Shown piece by piece: positions 7,788-22,597 of a stretch of DNA of 64,000 nucleotides (position 1 is its first letter; each line of letters begins with the position of its first letter). The notes beneath the pieces are model-generated. The model was not told the DNA's origin. It searched no databases and saw only the letters and a program-made list of their open reading frames with translations. The DNA lies in the NCBI RefSeq assembly GCF_010667575.1, contig NZ_JAABNT010000005.1:62001-126000 (forward strand). Direction: 5' to 3'. The translations under genes were made by a program, and so were the position numbers. Source of the DNA: Sulfitobacter sediminilitoris. GTDB lineage: Bacteria; Pseudomonadota; Alphaproteobacteria; Rhodobacterales; Rhodobacteraceae.

Positions 7788-8441
7788 ATGAGCCTGCAAG
7801 AGATCAAAGACCGCATTGCACAAGCTGAGAAAGACGCTGGTCGCGCTGCCGGGTCGGTACATCTGATCGCGGTCAGCAAAGTACAGCCCAATGAACGTGT
7901 GCAGGCCGTGCTGGAACAAGGCCACCGCTGTTTCGGCGAGAATAAGGTGCAGGAGGCTGCAGGCAAATGGCCTGCGTTCAAGGAAATTTTCCCGGGCATC
8001 GACCTACATCTGATTGGCCCGCTTCAGTCTAACAAGACACGGCAGGCCATGGACCTTTTCGACGCCATCCATTCGGTCGACCGCCCCAAGCTGGCCAAGG
8101 CCATCGCGCGTATAGCGCAGGAAGAAGGCAATTGTCCGGATCTCTTCGTACAGGTGAATTCCGGCGAGGAGGAGCAAAAAGCCGGGGTTTTGCCCGCTGA
8201 TGCAGATGCGTTCATCGCGGATTGTCTATCGATGGACCTGCCCGTGAAAGGGTTGATGTGCATTCCGCCAGTGGACGAGGAGCCGAGCCTGCATTTCGCG
8301 CTGCTGGCCAAGATCGCCGCGCGCAATGGTCTGACGGGCCTTTCCATGGGAATGAGCAGCGATTTTGAGCGCGCCATTGCCTTGGGCGCCACGCACGTGC
8401 GCGTCGGATCGGCAATCTTTGGCGCGCGTGTCGCGGGTTGA
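7788..8441 (+). CDS. yggS: YggS/PROSC family pyridoxal-phosphate homeostasis protein
   Basis: A 217-residue single-domain alanine-racemase-like barrel. The PLP-binding lysine is in LIAVSKVQP near residue 30, and other family blocks are visible: GENKVQEAAGK, LHLIGPLQSNK and GLSMGMSSDFERAI. The family is thought to buffer free PLP and influence amino-acid and keto-acid balance rather than act as a racemase. It is cytoplasmic. The gene follows the porin terminator and has a GGAGGA ribosome site just upstream of its ATG, so it is probably transcribed on its own. Confidence 0.93.
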   Translation: MSLQEIKDRIAQAEKDAGRAAGSVHLIAVSKVQPNERVQAVLEQGHRCFGENKVQEAAGKWPAFKEIFPGIDLHLIGPLQSNKTRQAMDLFDAIHSVDRPKLAKAIARIAQEEGNCPDLFVQVNSGEEEQKAGVLPADADAFIADCLSMDLPVKGLMCIPPVDEEPSLHFALLAKIAARNGLTGLSMGMSSDFERAIALGATHVRVGSAIFGARVAG

Positions 8442-16787: not shown

Positions 16788-17975
16788 ATGGTGTACCCAG
16801 AGCGGTTTTCGAACCTTCCGGCTCATGCTTGGCCGCGCCTGCGCGCTCTTTTAGACGTGCATGAGGGCGGTGGCCCGCTGATCCAGATGACAATTGGCGA
16901 GCCGAAACATGCGTTTCCGGCTTGGGTTACTGATGTCATCACGCAAAACGCCGCTGGGTTTAACAAGTATCCGCCGAACGATGGCTCTCCTGAACTCAAG
17001 TCTGCCATCGCGGGCTGGATCAAGCGGCGCTACGGGGTCGAGATGGATGCCGAAACAGAGGTTATGGCGCTGAACGGCACGCGCGAGGGGCTCTATAACG
17101 CGGTCATCGCGCTGTGTCCTGAGACGAAGCATGGCGAAAAACCCGCCGTGCTGATGCCGAACCCCTTTTATCAGGTCTATATGATCGCCGCAATTTCCGG
17201 CGCTGCCGATCCGATCATGGTGAATGCCACGGCTGAGACAGGTCATCTGCCGGACTTCGAAAACGTGCCCGAAGATGTGTTGCGCCGAACAGTCGCTACC
17301 TACATCTGTTCGCCCGCCAATCCGCAAGGGGCCGTGGCTGATCGTGATTACTGGGCGAAGCTGATCGCGCTGGCCGAGAAGTACGATTTCTTTATTTTTG
17401 CCGATGAGTGTTACTCCGAGATCTACCGCGACACGCCGCCCCCCGGTGCGATGGAAGTGGCCGAGGAACTGGGCACGGATCGCAACCGGGTGGTGATTTT
17501 CCATTCGCTCAGCAAACGGTCGAACCTGCCGGGACTGCGTTCCGGTTTCGTGGCGTCCGGTCCTGATACCATCCGCGAGATCAAGCAGCTGCGCAATTAT
17601 GCCGGTGCACCGCTGCCGCTGCCGTTGCAGCAGGCCGCTGCCGCTGTCTGGACCGACGAGGAACACGTCAAGGAAAACCGCCGTCTCTATCTGGAGAAAT
17701 ACCAGATCGCCGACCGCATCCTTGGCAACGTGCCGGGCTATGTCAGTCCGGACGCCGGATTCTTCCTCTGGCTGCCGGTCGAGGATGATGAAGAAGCGGC
17801 AGTGAAGCTGTGGCGCGAGACAGGCGTCAAGGTGCTGCCCGGCGGGTATCTGGCGCAGGACGTACCGGGGCAGGAAAACCCCGGCAAGAAATACATAAGA
17901 GTGGCGCTGGTCGCGCCTGCGGATGAAACGGAACGCGGATTGGAGCTGATCCGCGACTGTCTTTATCCGGCATGA
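16788..17975 (+). CDS. Class I/II PLP aminotransferase (DapC-like)
   Basis: A 395-residue fold-type I aminotransferase. The PLP lysine is Lys243 in [16 protein letters not shown], and [19 protein letters not shown] and the Arg in KYIRVALV are typical. The overall sequence ([19 protein letters not shown]) resembles succinyldiaminopimelate aminotransferases of lysine and peptidoglycan-precursor synthesis, but the substrate is inferred; dapB also lies in this window, far away. The stop overlaps the ftsK start (ATGA), giving tight coupling with ftsK. Confidence 0.88.
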
Positions 17976-20881
17976 GTAAGAGGGACGAAAGCATGGCATA
18001 TCAGACACGCGGGCGCGATCCATTGCTGGACAGCAACATGGCTGAAGCCATCGAGAAACGCGGCAAGGAACTGCTGGGTCTGGTGCTGATCCTATTCGGT
18101 GTGATGGCTGCGATGATGATCGGAAGCTATACGCCAGACGATCCCAACTGGATGGTGTCCACGGATGCCCCCGTGCAGAACTGGATGGGCCGGATGGGTG
18201 CGTCCATCGCGGCACCGCTGTTCATGATCGTGGGCTGGGGCGCTTGGGGCGTGGCCATTGTCCTGCTGGTCTGGGGCGTGCGTTTTGCACTGCACATGGG
18301 GCAGGATCGTGCCGTGGGGCGCCTGATCTTTGCACCGATTGCCTTGGCACTTGGCTCAATCTATGCAGCGACCCTCGCGCCGGGGCCGGAGTGGCTGCAA
18401 ACACACAGCTTTGGTTTGGGGGGCCTTTTTGGCGACACCGTCATGGGGGCGATCCTGACGATCCTGCCCATTGGCTCCACCTTCACGGTCAAGTTGATGT
18501 CGCTGGTAATGGGCGTTGGTATCTTGGCACTGGGTGCTTTCGTGCTGGGCTTCACCAAGGTGGAGCTTGCCCGTATCGGGCGCTTCCTTCTGGTTGGTGT
18601 GATCATGGCCTATGCGCTTGTCATGGCGGCACTGGGCCGCAGTGTCAGCGGTGCTGTCCACGCAGGTCAGAAGCTGCACATCCGTCAGGCCGAGCGTCGC
18701 GAGCGCAACCGCATTGCAGCCGAGGAGCAGGCCGCGTTTGAAGCCAGCCAGCCGGTGATGACAACGCCAACTGCACCCGCACTGCCGCCAGAGCTTATGT
18801 TGACGGCTGAGGCTCCGGATCAGAAGACCGGGCTTTTGGCACGGATGCCCGGACTGATCAAACGGCCCGAACAGATGCCCGAACCGGAACTTGTAGAGCA
18901 TTACAGCGATGTCGTCCTTGACGACATGCCGGGTGAGGACCGCATCAAGTCCAAGATCGCTGATGTCATCAAGAACCGCGTGCGCAGCACGACCGCCGTA
19001 CATACCGCAACCACAGCACCCTTGACCAAAGGGCGCGGCCGCGGTCCCGATGCGCTGCTTTTGAACAGCGCACCGCAAACGCAGCTCAAGCCTGAACCGC
19101 CGCTTACCGCGTCTGCGCGAACGGTGCCTCCTGTAACCGCAACGAAGCTTTCCATCGATACTGTGGCACCTGCGGCTGTCGCAGTGCCGCCAGCCACGTC
19201 ACAGGAAGCAGCCCTGCCATTGCAGGAAGCACCCGCGCCCGAAGTGCCGCCCATCCCCGTGGCCGAACCGCGCAACATCGTGCAGCAACCGACACGCAAG
19301 CCTGTTCAACCGTCCAAACAAGCCAAGGCAGAGGCGCAACCGACACTCAGCTTCGAAGAGACCCACCCCGGCTTTGAATTGCCTCCACTTAACCTCCTGG
19401 AAAACCCTGAGGAAATTCAGCGACTGCACCTGAGCGATGAAGCGTTGGAAGAAAATGCGCGCATGTTGGAATCGGTGCTGGATGATTACGGCGTGAAGGG
19501 CGAGATCGTCGCCGTCCGCCCCGGCCCGGTGGTGACCATGTACGAGCTTGAGCCCGCACCGGGCCTCAAGGCGTCCCGTGTCATTGGTCTTGCCGATGAT
19601 ATCGCCCGTTCGATGGCAGCCCTCTCTGCGCGTGTCTCAACCGTGCCGGGCCGCAGCGTCATCGGTATCGAACTGCCAAATGAGAACCGCGAAAAGGTTG
19701 TCCTGCGTGAGATTCTGTCAGCCCGAGATTTTGGCGACAGCAACATGCGGCTCCCGCTGGCGCTGGGCAAGGACATCGGCGGCGATCCGGTGGTCGCGAA
19801 CCTTGCCAAGATGCCTCACCTGCTGATTGCGGGGACCACCGGCTCCGGTAAATCCGTTGCGATCAACACGATGATCCTGAGCTTGCTTTACAAGCTGACG
19901 CCCCAGGAATGTCGGTTGATCATGATCGACCCCAAGATGCTGGAACTTTCCGTCTATGACGGCATCCCGCACCTGCTGTCGCCGGTGGTGACAGACCCCA
20001 AGAAGGCGGTCGTAGCCCTCAAATGGGTCGTGGGCGAGATGGAAGAACGGTATCGCAAGATGTCCAAGATGGGCGTGCGGAACATCGAGGGTTTTAACGG
20101 TCGTGTGCGCGAGGCATTGGCCAAGGGCGAGATGTTCAGCCGCACCGTTCAAACCGGTTTCGACGAGGATACCGGCGAGCCGATTTTCGAGACCGAAGAG
20201 AACACCCCCGAGGCGCTCCCCTATATCGTCGTGATCGTGGACGAGATGGCAGACCTGATGATGGTCGCTGGCAAAGAGATCGAGGCTTGTATCCAGCGTC
20301 TGGCACAGATGGCGCGTGCCTCTGGCATTCATCTGATCATGGCGACACAGCGACCTTCCGTTGATGTGATCACCGGTACGATCAAGGCGAACTTCCCGAC
20401 GCGGATTTCCTTCCAGGTAACCTCCAAGATCGACAGCCGCACGATCCTTGGCGAGATGGGAGCCGAACAACTGCTTGGTATGGGTGACATGCTTTACATG
20501 GCTGGCGGCGCCAAGATCACCCGCTGCCACGGACCTTTCGTCAGCGATGAAGAGGTCGAGGAAATCGTCAACCACCTCAAGCAGTTCGGAGAGCCGGATT
20601 ACGTCTCTGGTGTGGTCGAAGGACCGGCAGAGGACTCCGAAGCGAGCATCGATGCTGTGCTGGGGCTGGGTGGCAATACTGACGGCGAAGACGCGCTTTA
20701 TGATCAGGCGGTCGCGGTGGTTATCAAAGACCGCAAATGTTCCACCTCTTACATCCAACGTAAACTTGCGATCGGATACAACAAGGCGGCGCGACTGGTG
20801 GAGCAGATGGAAGATCAGGGTCTTGTGTCACCCGCAAACCACGTCGGCAAACGCGAAATACTCGTGCCAGAACAAGGCTAG
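17972..20881 (+). CDS. ftsK: DNA translocase FtsK
   Basis: A 969-residue septal DNA pump that clears chromosomes from the division plane and activates XerCD at dif. Four hydrophobic segments lie in residues about 30-220. A Pro/Ala-rich linker spans about 240-470. The motor has Walker A GTTGSGKS at residues 621-628 and Walker [11 protein letters not shown] near 755. The C-terminal gamma winged helix ([21 protein letters not shown], from about 910) recognises the polar KOPS sequences. The linker is short compared with E. coli FtsK. It is coupled to the aminotransferase upstream and closed by a terminator. Confidence 0.96.
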
Positions 20882-21282
20882 GCTTACCTCCAAGGGTCAG
20901 GTTCCAAGGCACCATGGCACCGCCGGGCTTCTCTCTCCCGGCGGTGTTTTTCGTTTGGTTTCGAGTCGGCAAAAGGACCGTAACAGTCTGTTCGGGATAC
21001 CAATGGCCCGGCTGACGAATGCTCAAAATTCTGGACGGAAGGTGCAGAAATGCCCTAGGCTGCCGGTGCAATCCCACTCTGCGACCTGTCACAAGGCCCA
21101 TATTCAGCGGCCCTAAGGGGCGGGTGGGGCCATTTTGGCCTGCAATATTTTAAAACGATTATTTCAACGATCAAGTGATTGAAGGACAGACGTGCCAGCA
21201 GTTTTGGAACTGAACGTCACAGTAAGACGCGGACCCGTCGGCACATCCTGATCCTGCAGATCAGTGCGAAAAGGACCCTGCC
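20882..21282. other. Non-coding gap between ftsK and the lysine-rich gene
   Basis: The 401-bp gap starts with the ftsK terminator. The rest has no ORF I believe: an 80-codon frame from 20724 on the other strand and a 71-codon frame from 21179 have no family-like content. From 21140 to 21180 it is locally AT-rich, with TTGGCC (21135-21140) 17 bp before ATTATT (21158-21163), a weak sigma-70-like pair that might be the promoter of the lysine-rich gene. AAGGA lies a short distance before the ATG at 21283. Confidence 0.4.
20918..20951 (+). terminator. Rho-independent terminator after ftsK
   Basis: Perfect 10-bp stem CACCGCCGGG (20918-20927) and CCCGGCGGTG (20937-20946), 9-nt loop, then TTTTT. It lies 37 bp after the ftsK stop and separates ftsK from the next gene. 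Confidence 0.92.
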
Positions 21283-21900
21283 ATGGCAGAAGACAACGAC
21301 CCGACAAAGAAATTTCTGGACGCGACCCAAAGGTATCAGACACGGTTACAGCATTTGTGGAAGACCGTTTTCAAGAAGGTGGCATCCTATCTGAAATCCT
21401 TGGTGGCTTTCATCACCAAGGTCACGAAAGCGGCCGCAAAACTGGCCATGACCGTGGGCAAAGCGGTGGTTGACAAGGTCATGGCTGCCGGAAAGCTGGT
21501 CGAACAGCTTATCAGCAAGATTCCGCAACTGATCAAGGCAGCCATGAAGCTGGGCAGAAAGATCATCGACCTGATCAAGAAAGCTTCCGATCCGAACAAG
21601 ATCATCGGCACGCTGAAAAAACTGTTCACCCGCTATGTGAAGATGCTGAGAGAAATTTTCGGCGAGATCGCGCAATTGGTGAAACAACTGGATGTGATGG
21701 GGACACTTCTGGGCATCGTGAATTCCTTTAAAAAGGTCCTTCAGCTGGTGTTTGCGTGGATCGCGGATGTGACAAAGGCGAACGATGCCGTGATCCGGGC
21801 CAAGCGGATGCTTCAGAAAGCCATCAAGGAAATGAAGAAAGAGGTAAAAGAGGCCGAGAAGCTTCGCAAAGAGGTGATGAAGCTGAAGGTTGCGGCCTGA
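21283..21900 (+). CDS. Unrecognised lysine-rich, all-helical basic protein
   Basis: A 205-residue protein I do not recognise. By my count it has 36 Lys and 8 Arg against 18 Asp/Glu, only 3 Pro and no Cys. It looks helical throughout, with Lys spaced every 3-4 residues between Ile/Leu/Val/Phe/Ala, for example KAAAKLAMTVGKAVVDKVM and LGRKIIDLIKKASDPNK, giving amphipathic helices. There is no signal peptide or lipobox. A central stretch (about 137-165) is more hydrophobic, and the last 40 residues look like a charged coiled coil. Codon choice matches the chromosome. It lies between the ftsK terminator and lolA, 94 bp before lolA. Membrane or lipid binding is a guess; DNA compaction or a toxin-like role are alternatives. 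Confidence 0.75.
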   Translation: MAEDNDPTKKFLDATQRYQTRLQHLWKTVFKKVASYLKSLVAFITKVTKAAAKLAMTVGKAVVDKVMAAGKLVEQLISKIPQLIKAAMKLGRKIIDLIKKASDPNKIIGTLKKLFTRYVKMLREIFGEIAQLVKQLDVMGTLLGIVNSFKKVLQLVFAWIADVTKANDAVIRAKRMLQKAIKEMKKEVKEAEKLRKEVMKLKVAA

Positions 21901-21929
21901 CCTTTGTGCAATGCGCGAAAATCCGCGGC

Positions 21930-21946
21930 TTGATATCGCATATCAA
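21930..21946. promoter_or_regulatory. 17-bp perfect dyad upstream of lolA
   Basis: TTGATAT (21930-21936), 3-bp spacer, ATATCAA (21940-21946), centred about 57 bp before the lolA ATG and 30-46 bp after the stop of the lysine-rich gene. It is operator-like. The TTGAT/ATCAA ends recall an FNR box, but the spacer is 7 bp rather than 4, so I do not call it one. Confidence 0.4.
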
Positions 21947-21994
21947 CCCCGGACGCCTTATGTCGTGATCAGCAATGACATACAGGTAAACATC

Positions 21995-22597
21995 ATGCGT
22001 TTCTTCCGGTCTGCCATCCTTGGCCTTGGCATGGCGATCTTTCTTCCTCTGGCGGCTGCAGCGCAAAAGCTGCCGTTGAACGATATCTCCGCGTATCTCA
22101 ACAAGCTCCAGACGGCCAAGGGAGAGTTCACCCAGATCAACGACGATGGCTCTATCAGCACGGGCACGATTTATATCAAGCGCCCCGGTAAGGTACGGTT
22201 CGAATATAACCCGCCTGAAAGCGCGCTGGTCGTGGCCGGCAGCAACACGGTCGTGATCTATGACAAGAAATCGAACCAGCCAGCAGAAAGCTATCCGCTG
22301 TCACGTACGCCGCTGTCGATCATCCTGGCGCGCAACGTGAACCTTGGTGCCGCGAACATGGTGACGGGCCACCGTTTTGACGGCACGGCCACGGTCGTCA
22401 CCGCGCAGGACCCGCAGAACCCCGAATACGGCAACATCCAGCTGAAATTCACGGGCAATCCCGTTGAGCTGCGCCAGTGGGTGATCAACGATGGCAATGG
22501 GTCCCAGACGACAATTGTGTTGGGGGATCTGCAAGAGGGCGCAAACCTGCCCAACAGCCTGTTCGATGTCGGAAGCCCCGGTCAAGCGAACCGCTAA
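21995..22597 (+). CDS. lolA: Outer-membrane lipoprotein carrier protein LolA
   Basis: A 200-residue periplasmic chaperone carrying lipoproteins from LolCDE to the outer membrane. A signal peptide ends near AAAAQ (about residue 21). Then follow LNKLQTAKGEFTQIN, IYIKRPGKVRFEYNPP and PLSIILARNVNL, typical of the alphaproteobacterial LolA barrel. The start at 21995 is taken because the upstream extension of 35 residues would bury the signal peptide. LolA commonly follows ftsK; here a foreign-looking gene and a terminator lie between, so it probably has its own promoter. Confidence 0.9.
   Translation: MRFFRSAILGLGMAIFLPLAAAAQKLPLNDISAYLNKLQTAKGEFTQINDDGSISTGTIYIKRPGKVRFEYNPPESALVVAGSNTVVIYDKKSNQPAESYPLSRTPLSIILARNVNLGAANMVTGHRFDGTATVVTAQDPQNPEYGNIQLKFTGNPVELRQWVINDGNGSQTTIVLGDLQEGANLPNSLFDVGSPGQANR

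Follow-up and report, generated by a model that had tools for sequence, protein, structure and literature searches.

An orphan lysine-rich gene between ftsK and lolA of Sulfitobacter sediminilitoris, tentatively read as encoding an amphipathic helix-bundle coat protein

The window analyzed here, a stretch of 64,000 nucleotides from Sulfitobacter sediminilitoris, carries an ftsK gene (17972..20881, +; Pfam FtsK domains), an orphan gene (21283..21900, +), and lolA (21995..22597, +; Pfam LolA, 4.1e-27), with a lytic transglycosylase gene downstream that Pfam confirms as it does FtsK and LolA. We use the name X for the orphan gene and for its product of 205 amino acids. The ORF opens with ATG, closes with TGA, and lies 401 nt from ftsK and 94 nt from lolA, exactly where a sequence-only reading of this DNA had put it; the residue counts given there (36 Lys, 8 Arg, 18 Asp plus Glu, no Cys, and 3 Pro) match exactly on recount. 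That reading also took X for a real gene with chromosome-like codon use, and both claims hold. X is a real gene and not a spurious ORF: homologues were found, so that 14 genomes carry it in total, the frame is intact, and the copies show codon-position bias, low dN in pairs, and purifying selection. Its codon-use value of 0.182 is ordinary and mid-range, being rank 15 from the lowest among the 24 genes called in positions 8001–36000. The G+C content is low (50.5% versus 58–62% in six other genes) and GC3 is normal (0.704), a combination that fits the Lys-rich composition and not recent transfer or a foreign origin. No known RNA was detected with Rfam at gathering scores in positions 20850–22050.

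The sequence-only reading described a strong ftsK terminator. Read by eye, the sequence 3′ of ftsK (20918..20951, +) shows a GC-rich hairpin and, behind it, a run of five T, and similar hairpins occur in the aligned ftsK–X gaps. An automatic terminator scan of 20850–22050 did not list it, because its loop comprises 9 bases and the scan allows 3–8; the scan returned two other sites, against 2.0 expected. Upstream of X, the alignment of four Sulfitobacter upstream regions suggests by eye a candidate promoter for X (CTGGAC, 18 nt, CTAGGC; 21031..21060, +), which the consensus promoter scan did not find. Distant members of the family carry upstream a CTTGAY-N17/18-CAnnCT pattern whose second hexamer ends 66–71 nt from the start in L017, L018, L019, L021, and L025 (L019 and L025 being near-identical) and 44 nt from it in L016; the pattern is promoter-like, in a suggestive sense only. 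No dif-like site was found in the window.

Two further elements of the interval were noted. Close 5′ of lolA, at 21931–21945, lies a perfect palindrome, TGATAT-CGC-ATATCA, followed by a CTTATGTC-like stretch; the palindrome or a near form of it occurs in 17 of 29 Sulfitobacter ftsK–lolA gaps, and it may serve lolA as an operator or promoter element. At 20879–20891, TAGGCTTACCTCC starts at the ftsK stop codon. CTTACCTCC is kept in 9 of 11 ftsK–lolA gaps compared and in 3 of 4 aligned upstream sequences, and the CCTCC within it resembles the anti-Shine-Dalgarno sequence.

The sequence-only reading had stated that X parts two genes that usually adjoin, and had proposed comparing the interval across relatives. 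The 29 intervals measured come from 59 genomes with a lolA match (60 searched): the 30 lolA loci with the best scores were taken, and one of these had no ftsK match. In 22 of them the ftsK–lolA gap is only 163–267 bp, which bears out the statement; X is kept in 4, and a different, ExoD-like gene fills the interval in 3 others (L039, L040, and L041, all Sulfitobacter; the L040 copy matches Pfam ExoD at 2e-42, and the other two were judged from their translations). The slot between ftsK and lolA thus accepts single genes. In a midpoint-rooted tree of 29 genomes, built from the FtsK tail, LolA, and the transglycosylase, the four X hosts group with three genomes that lack X in a seven-genome clade (support 0.90), a distribution that we read as one gain with later loss.

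In the wider searches, homologues of X were found in 4 of 62 genomes of Sulfitobacter, in 4 of 8 genomes of one other genus, in 7 of 394 sampled Rhodobacteraceae genomes with the family profile, and in 9 of 390 genomes of the order, all nine of them Rhodobacteraceae; these sets overlap. Among 240 sampled genomes of the class, the single hit was the window's own genome. Thirteen of the 14 carriers were aligned and are the members referred to below, the fourteenth (G732) standing outside the alignment. Searches of 72,556 plasmids and 50,697 phages, and two pattern-based scans of IMG/VR viral contigs, returned no homologue. In four leave-out tests, real members scored 130–213 bits, whereas shuffles that kept the residue class at each position averaged 30–78 and never exceeded 117; the homology therefore exceeds mere pattern. 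All 13 members are 204–218 residues long with intact frames. X defines a conserved orphan family, so far found only in some Rhodobacteraceae, and no description of it was found in those parts of the literature on phasins, Lys-rich proteins, and ftsK–lolA that were searched. A 206-residue ORF of like style and length in another genus (G193; L022:9673-10293, −) gave a single-sequence match of E 0.009. Its family HMM score of 24.4 bits exceeds 200 of 200 class-preserving shuffles by a narrow margin (maximum 22.2), and it is not recovered with the family profile at E 0.1; it is possibly a very distant relative and was left out of the family counts.

Between Sulfitobacter species, X is 54–57% identical, FtsK 86–87%, and LolA 80–91%. 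Comparison of the window's X with that of G008 gives changes of 0.35, 0.21, and 0.58 at the three codon positions, the third being highest. A low dN/dS had been named in the sequence-only reading as support for a real gene, and across 11 pairs dN is indeed well below dS, with dS near saturation in most; the sole pair with low dS (L019/L025) has a dS of 0.26 and a dN of 0.01. These values indicate that X is fast-evolving, yet protein-coding and under purifying selection.

X occupies five different sites across the 13 genomes, as called from Pfam searches on the neighbors of one or two genomes per site, with counterparts tied by BLAST. Four Sulfitobacter genomes share the ftsK–X–lolA arrangement. 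In two genera, one genome each (L017 and L021), the order is DUF484, a xerC-type gene, X, and a CDP-alcohol-phosphatidyltransferase-like gene. XerC genes typically adjoin DUF484, and the Phage_integrase match in L017, which does so, is read as XerC. Five genomes of two further genera carry X near dnaE, with hisS-, hisZ-, and hisG-type genes on the opposite side and small genes intervening in some. In one genome (L016) X adjoins genes for a TPP enzyme and an AraC-type regulator, and in another it lies between NAPRTase and an isochorismatase-family gene. The use of five sites shows that the ftsK–lolA position is not specific to the family, and no neighbor directly beside X is common to different sites. 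In L017, a gene of TPP-enzyme type at a distance of 2.4 kb from X resembles the TPP gene beside X in L016 (28% identity); the likeness was attributed to a common enzyme family, and the gene was rejected as a partner. X is best explained as a stand-alone accessory gene of Rhodobacteraceae that keeps fixed sites within lineages.

The protein itself is extreme in composition. All 13 members have a net charge of +20 to +32, no Cys, and 3–7 Pro, and among the 212 called proteins of at least 100 residues around them they hold the top 13 ranks in Lys as well as in net charge per residue. The amphipathic helices seen in the sequence-only reading are borne out: the mean helical hydrophobic moment of the window protein is 0.503 (z 9.3), whereas 300 shuffles average 0.234 with an sd of 0.029, and z values of 6.8–9.5 were obtained across the 13 members. 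In the helix-face analysis, which covered windows with a clear face and no inner Pro, ILVMF make up 72–80% of the residues within 60° of the hydrophobic face, and Lys and Arg mostly lie 120–180° away from it; because hydrophobic residues define the face, some of the ILVMF enrichment follows from the method itself, which is less true of where the charges lie. Heptad periodicity is 102.9°, and 11/3 apolipoprotein-type lipid helices have 98°. The periodicity peak of the members averages 102.3° (range 101.5–103.5), a heptad-like period that favors a packed bundle and speaks against classical 11/3 lipid helices. The best 19-residue hydropathy of the window protein is 1.44, below the usual membrane-span threshold of 1.6; 7 of the 13 members exceed this threshold, with values up to 2.20 and at positions that differ between them, which leaves room for a membrane-spanning form in some of them.

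An AlphaFold prediction from two sequences places five helices at residues 7–57, 60–100, 104–136, 142–164, and 167–201. The model is poor (mean pLDDT 53, pTM 0.47), and only its helix ends were used; with these the conserved break residues D6-P7, G59, D103-P104, D137, and G140 coincide. X may thus be an all-α protein of five helices, a prediction of low confidence. A search of the PDB by sequence gave only weak E values, to designed bundles, chemoreceptors, and generic coiled coils.

That X belongs to no recognized family, as had been claimed, agrees with the profile searches: none of the 24 Pfam matches of the window protein passes the curated cutoff, and likewise none in NCBIfam. The cutoff comparison concerns the window protein. 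Its weak, subthreshold Pfam matches (PhaE, Phasin_2, PspA, and ApoLp-III) are alike in style. Across the members, counted at E 0.1 or 0.01, the widespread matches are weak and mutually unrelated (a baculovirus PEP model and DUF7217 in 7 of 13 each, a mycoplasma two-TM model in 4 of 13). Apolipophorin-III is a five-helix amphipathic lipid-binding bundle and in this respect resembles the low-confidence five-helix prediction for X. The family is weakly matched by 4 of 13 members (best E 4.5e-4), but the window protein scores 17.4 bits against a cutoff of 36.3 (PF07464), and X differs in its heptad-like period and Lys dominance.

The reading that we favor, tentatively and at rather less than even confidence, is that X folds in the cytosol into a bundle of amphipathic helices, whose positively charged outside attaches to an anionic surface or polymer. 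In solution, the wide hydrophobic faces would pack against one another to form a bundle or oligomer, and the lysine-covered faces would bind the partner, for which the inner membrane leaflet, phospholipid-coated PHA granules, polyphosphate, and nucleic acid are candidates. X would then be a surface coating of phasin or apolipophorin type, with no claim of membership in either, and accessory rather than essential. In favor of a coat are the net charge, the absence of Cys, the top Lys ranks, the moment z values, the heptad-like peak, the charge opposite the hydrophobic face, the break residues at the model's helix ends, and the subthreshold PhaE, Phasin_2, PspA, and ApoLp-III matches. CDP-alcohol phosphatidyltransferases are a lipid-synthesis family, and a gene of this kind follows X at the xerC site only (Pfam 2.3e-5 in L017; the L021 counterpart is 84% identical). 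Against a coat stand the poor AlphaFold model, the period unlike that of 11/3 lipid helices, the possibly membrane-spanning members, and direct neighbors that vary by site, and neither a ligand nor a partner was found; the co-occurrence of phaC, described below, adds nothing either way. Of the options named in the sequence-only reading, the membrane- or lipid-binding or polymer-coating protein is plausible by inference, and the toxin-like element is not supported.

Next in rank, and unlikely, is a nucleoid or nucleic-acid-binding protein, in which a lysine-coated bundle would coat or bridge DNA or RNA in the manner of GapR or histone-like proteins. Such a role would suit the very high positive charge, the Lys on the polar faces, and the location of X beside ftsK in one lineage, beside a xerC-type gene in two genera, and near dnaE in two further genera. 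However, the TPP enzyme/AraC and NAPRTase/isochorismatase sites are not DNA-maintenance genes, dnaE fits loosely, the window lacks a dif-like site, and the hydrophobic face is probably broader than a small nucleoid protein needs. Nor do the members repeatedly and strongly match any family of DNA-binding proteins; RmuC comes closest (3 of 13 members, best 0.012). GapR has Lys-rich helices, as X has, but it is about 90 residues long against the 205 of X, and its family, DUF2312, is absent from the 24 Pfam matches of the window protein. Two reports describe GapR as a DNA-binding, oligomeric nucleoid-associated protein (PMC7373187, PMC7498317). The genes ftsK and xerC as neighbors hint at a chromosome role, with which two of the five sites are at odds, and the lipid-enzyme neighbor at the xerC site is a lead in the opposite direction, from one site only. 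A narrower and far less probable version makes X a lineage-specific chromosome-coating or septum-associated lysine-faced bundle working with the FtsK–XerCD machinery; if true, it would explain why X lies directly beside ftsK and a xerC-type gene in separate lineages.

Somewhat less likely than nucleic-acid binding is that X is an accessory true phasin on PHA granules. Phasins are commonly, though not obligatorily, encoded with PHA genes, and they need not be so cationic. The window protein reaches 21.7 bits with PhaE (PF09712; cutoff 25.7, E 1.4e-4), 17.9 with Phasin_2 (PF09361; cutoff 24.9, E 3.6e-3), 16.4 with TIGR01841 (cutoff 30.2), and 19.0 with TIGR01834 (cutoff 154.95), all below the curated values, and, counted by library entry, phasin or PhaE models are matched by just 1 of 13 members. 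A phaC gene is present in all 34 genomes tested, 13 hosts and 21 nonhosts alike, and its co-occurrence with X is therefore uninformative. Twelve of the 13 hosts have a Phasin_2 match elsewhere, which passes the cutoff in 11, and in all 13 hosts X lies on another contig or more than 250 kb from the phaC and Phasin_2 matches. Canonical phasin membership, named in the sequence-only reading as a match that would refute it, is rejected on these grounds. One report describes PhaP of Aeromonas as a coiled-coil tetramer of eight helices, each monomer with one hydrophobic and one hydrophilic surface (PMC5180188); X shares the α-helical, amphipathic character described there and differs in its charge of +20 to +32, its scores, and its distance from phaC. 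The window's genome (G000) holds three phaC and four Phasin_2 matches on contigs C1, C14, and C67, with a WS/DGAT match between the phaC and phasin matches on C67. A neutral-lipid droplet coat tied to WS/DGAT was rejected, as WS/DGAT occurs in 1 of 13 hosts versus 4 of 21 nonhosts.

A toxin, bacteriocin, or defense effector that perturbs membranes is improbable, although the cationic amphipathic helices, the rapid evolution, and the scattered occurrence of X would fit one, and one member weakly matches the antiviral reverse transcriptase Drt5 (8e-5, NCBIfam). The best PADLOC value for the window protein is 0.0041, again to Drt5. Different sites share no directly adjoining neighbor, the neighbors scanned with Pfam are of housekeeping type, and the same site is kept across species and genera, unlike typical mobile toxins; neither a conserved partner nor a strong defense-model match points to a toxin–antitoxin or defense system.

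Hardly credible, finally, is a decayed phage tape-measure fragment, the other refuting match named in the sequence-only reading. Tape-measure proteins do share with X long amphipathic helices and a similar residue pattern, and two tape-measure families, phrog_1272 (best 1.3e-9) and phrog_305 (best 1.7e-6), each match 10 of 13 members. Of five class-preserving shuffles of the window protein, to which this control applies, four match tape-measure or tail PHROGs; the best shuffle (1.7e-7) beats the window protein's own 1.7e-6, the best member's 1.3e-9 lying beyond these shuffles, and no similarity beyond the amphipathic pattern is left for the window protein. The tape-measure origin is rejected on these shuffles together with the near-fixed length of a stand-alone chromosomal gene with intact frames and the absence of phage context, there being no homologue in the phage and viral-contig searches and only housekeeping-type genes among the neighbors scanned. 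The shuffles also expose a trap, in that a strongly amphipathic basic protein that retains only its residue classes reaches 1.7e-7 against tape-measure profiles.

Surface coating therefore ranks first among the functions, still short of an even chance, ahead of nucleic-acid binding, a true accessory phasin, and a toxin, in that order. The X family is genuinely orphan, yet of an ordinary kind. It adds a protein family of defined length and conserved positions that has no curated model in the libraries searched, and if the surface-coating reading is true, X would be an unrecognized intracellular surfactant or coat protein.
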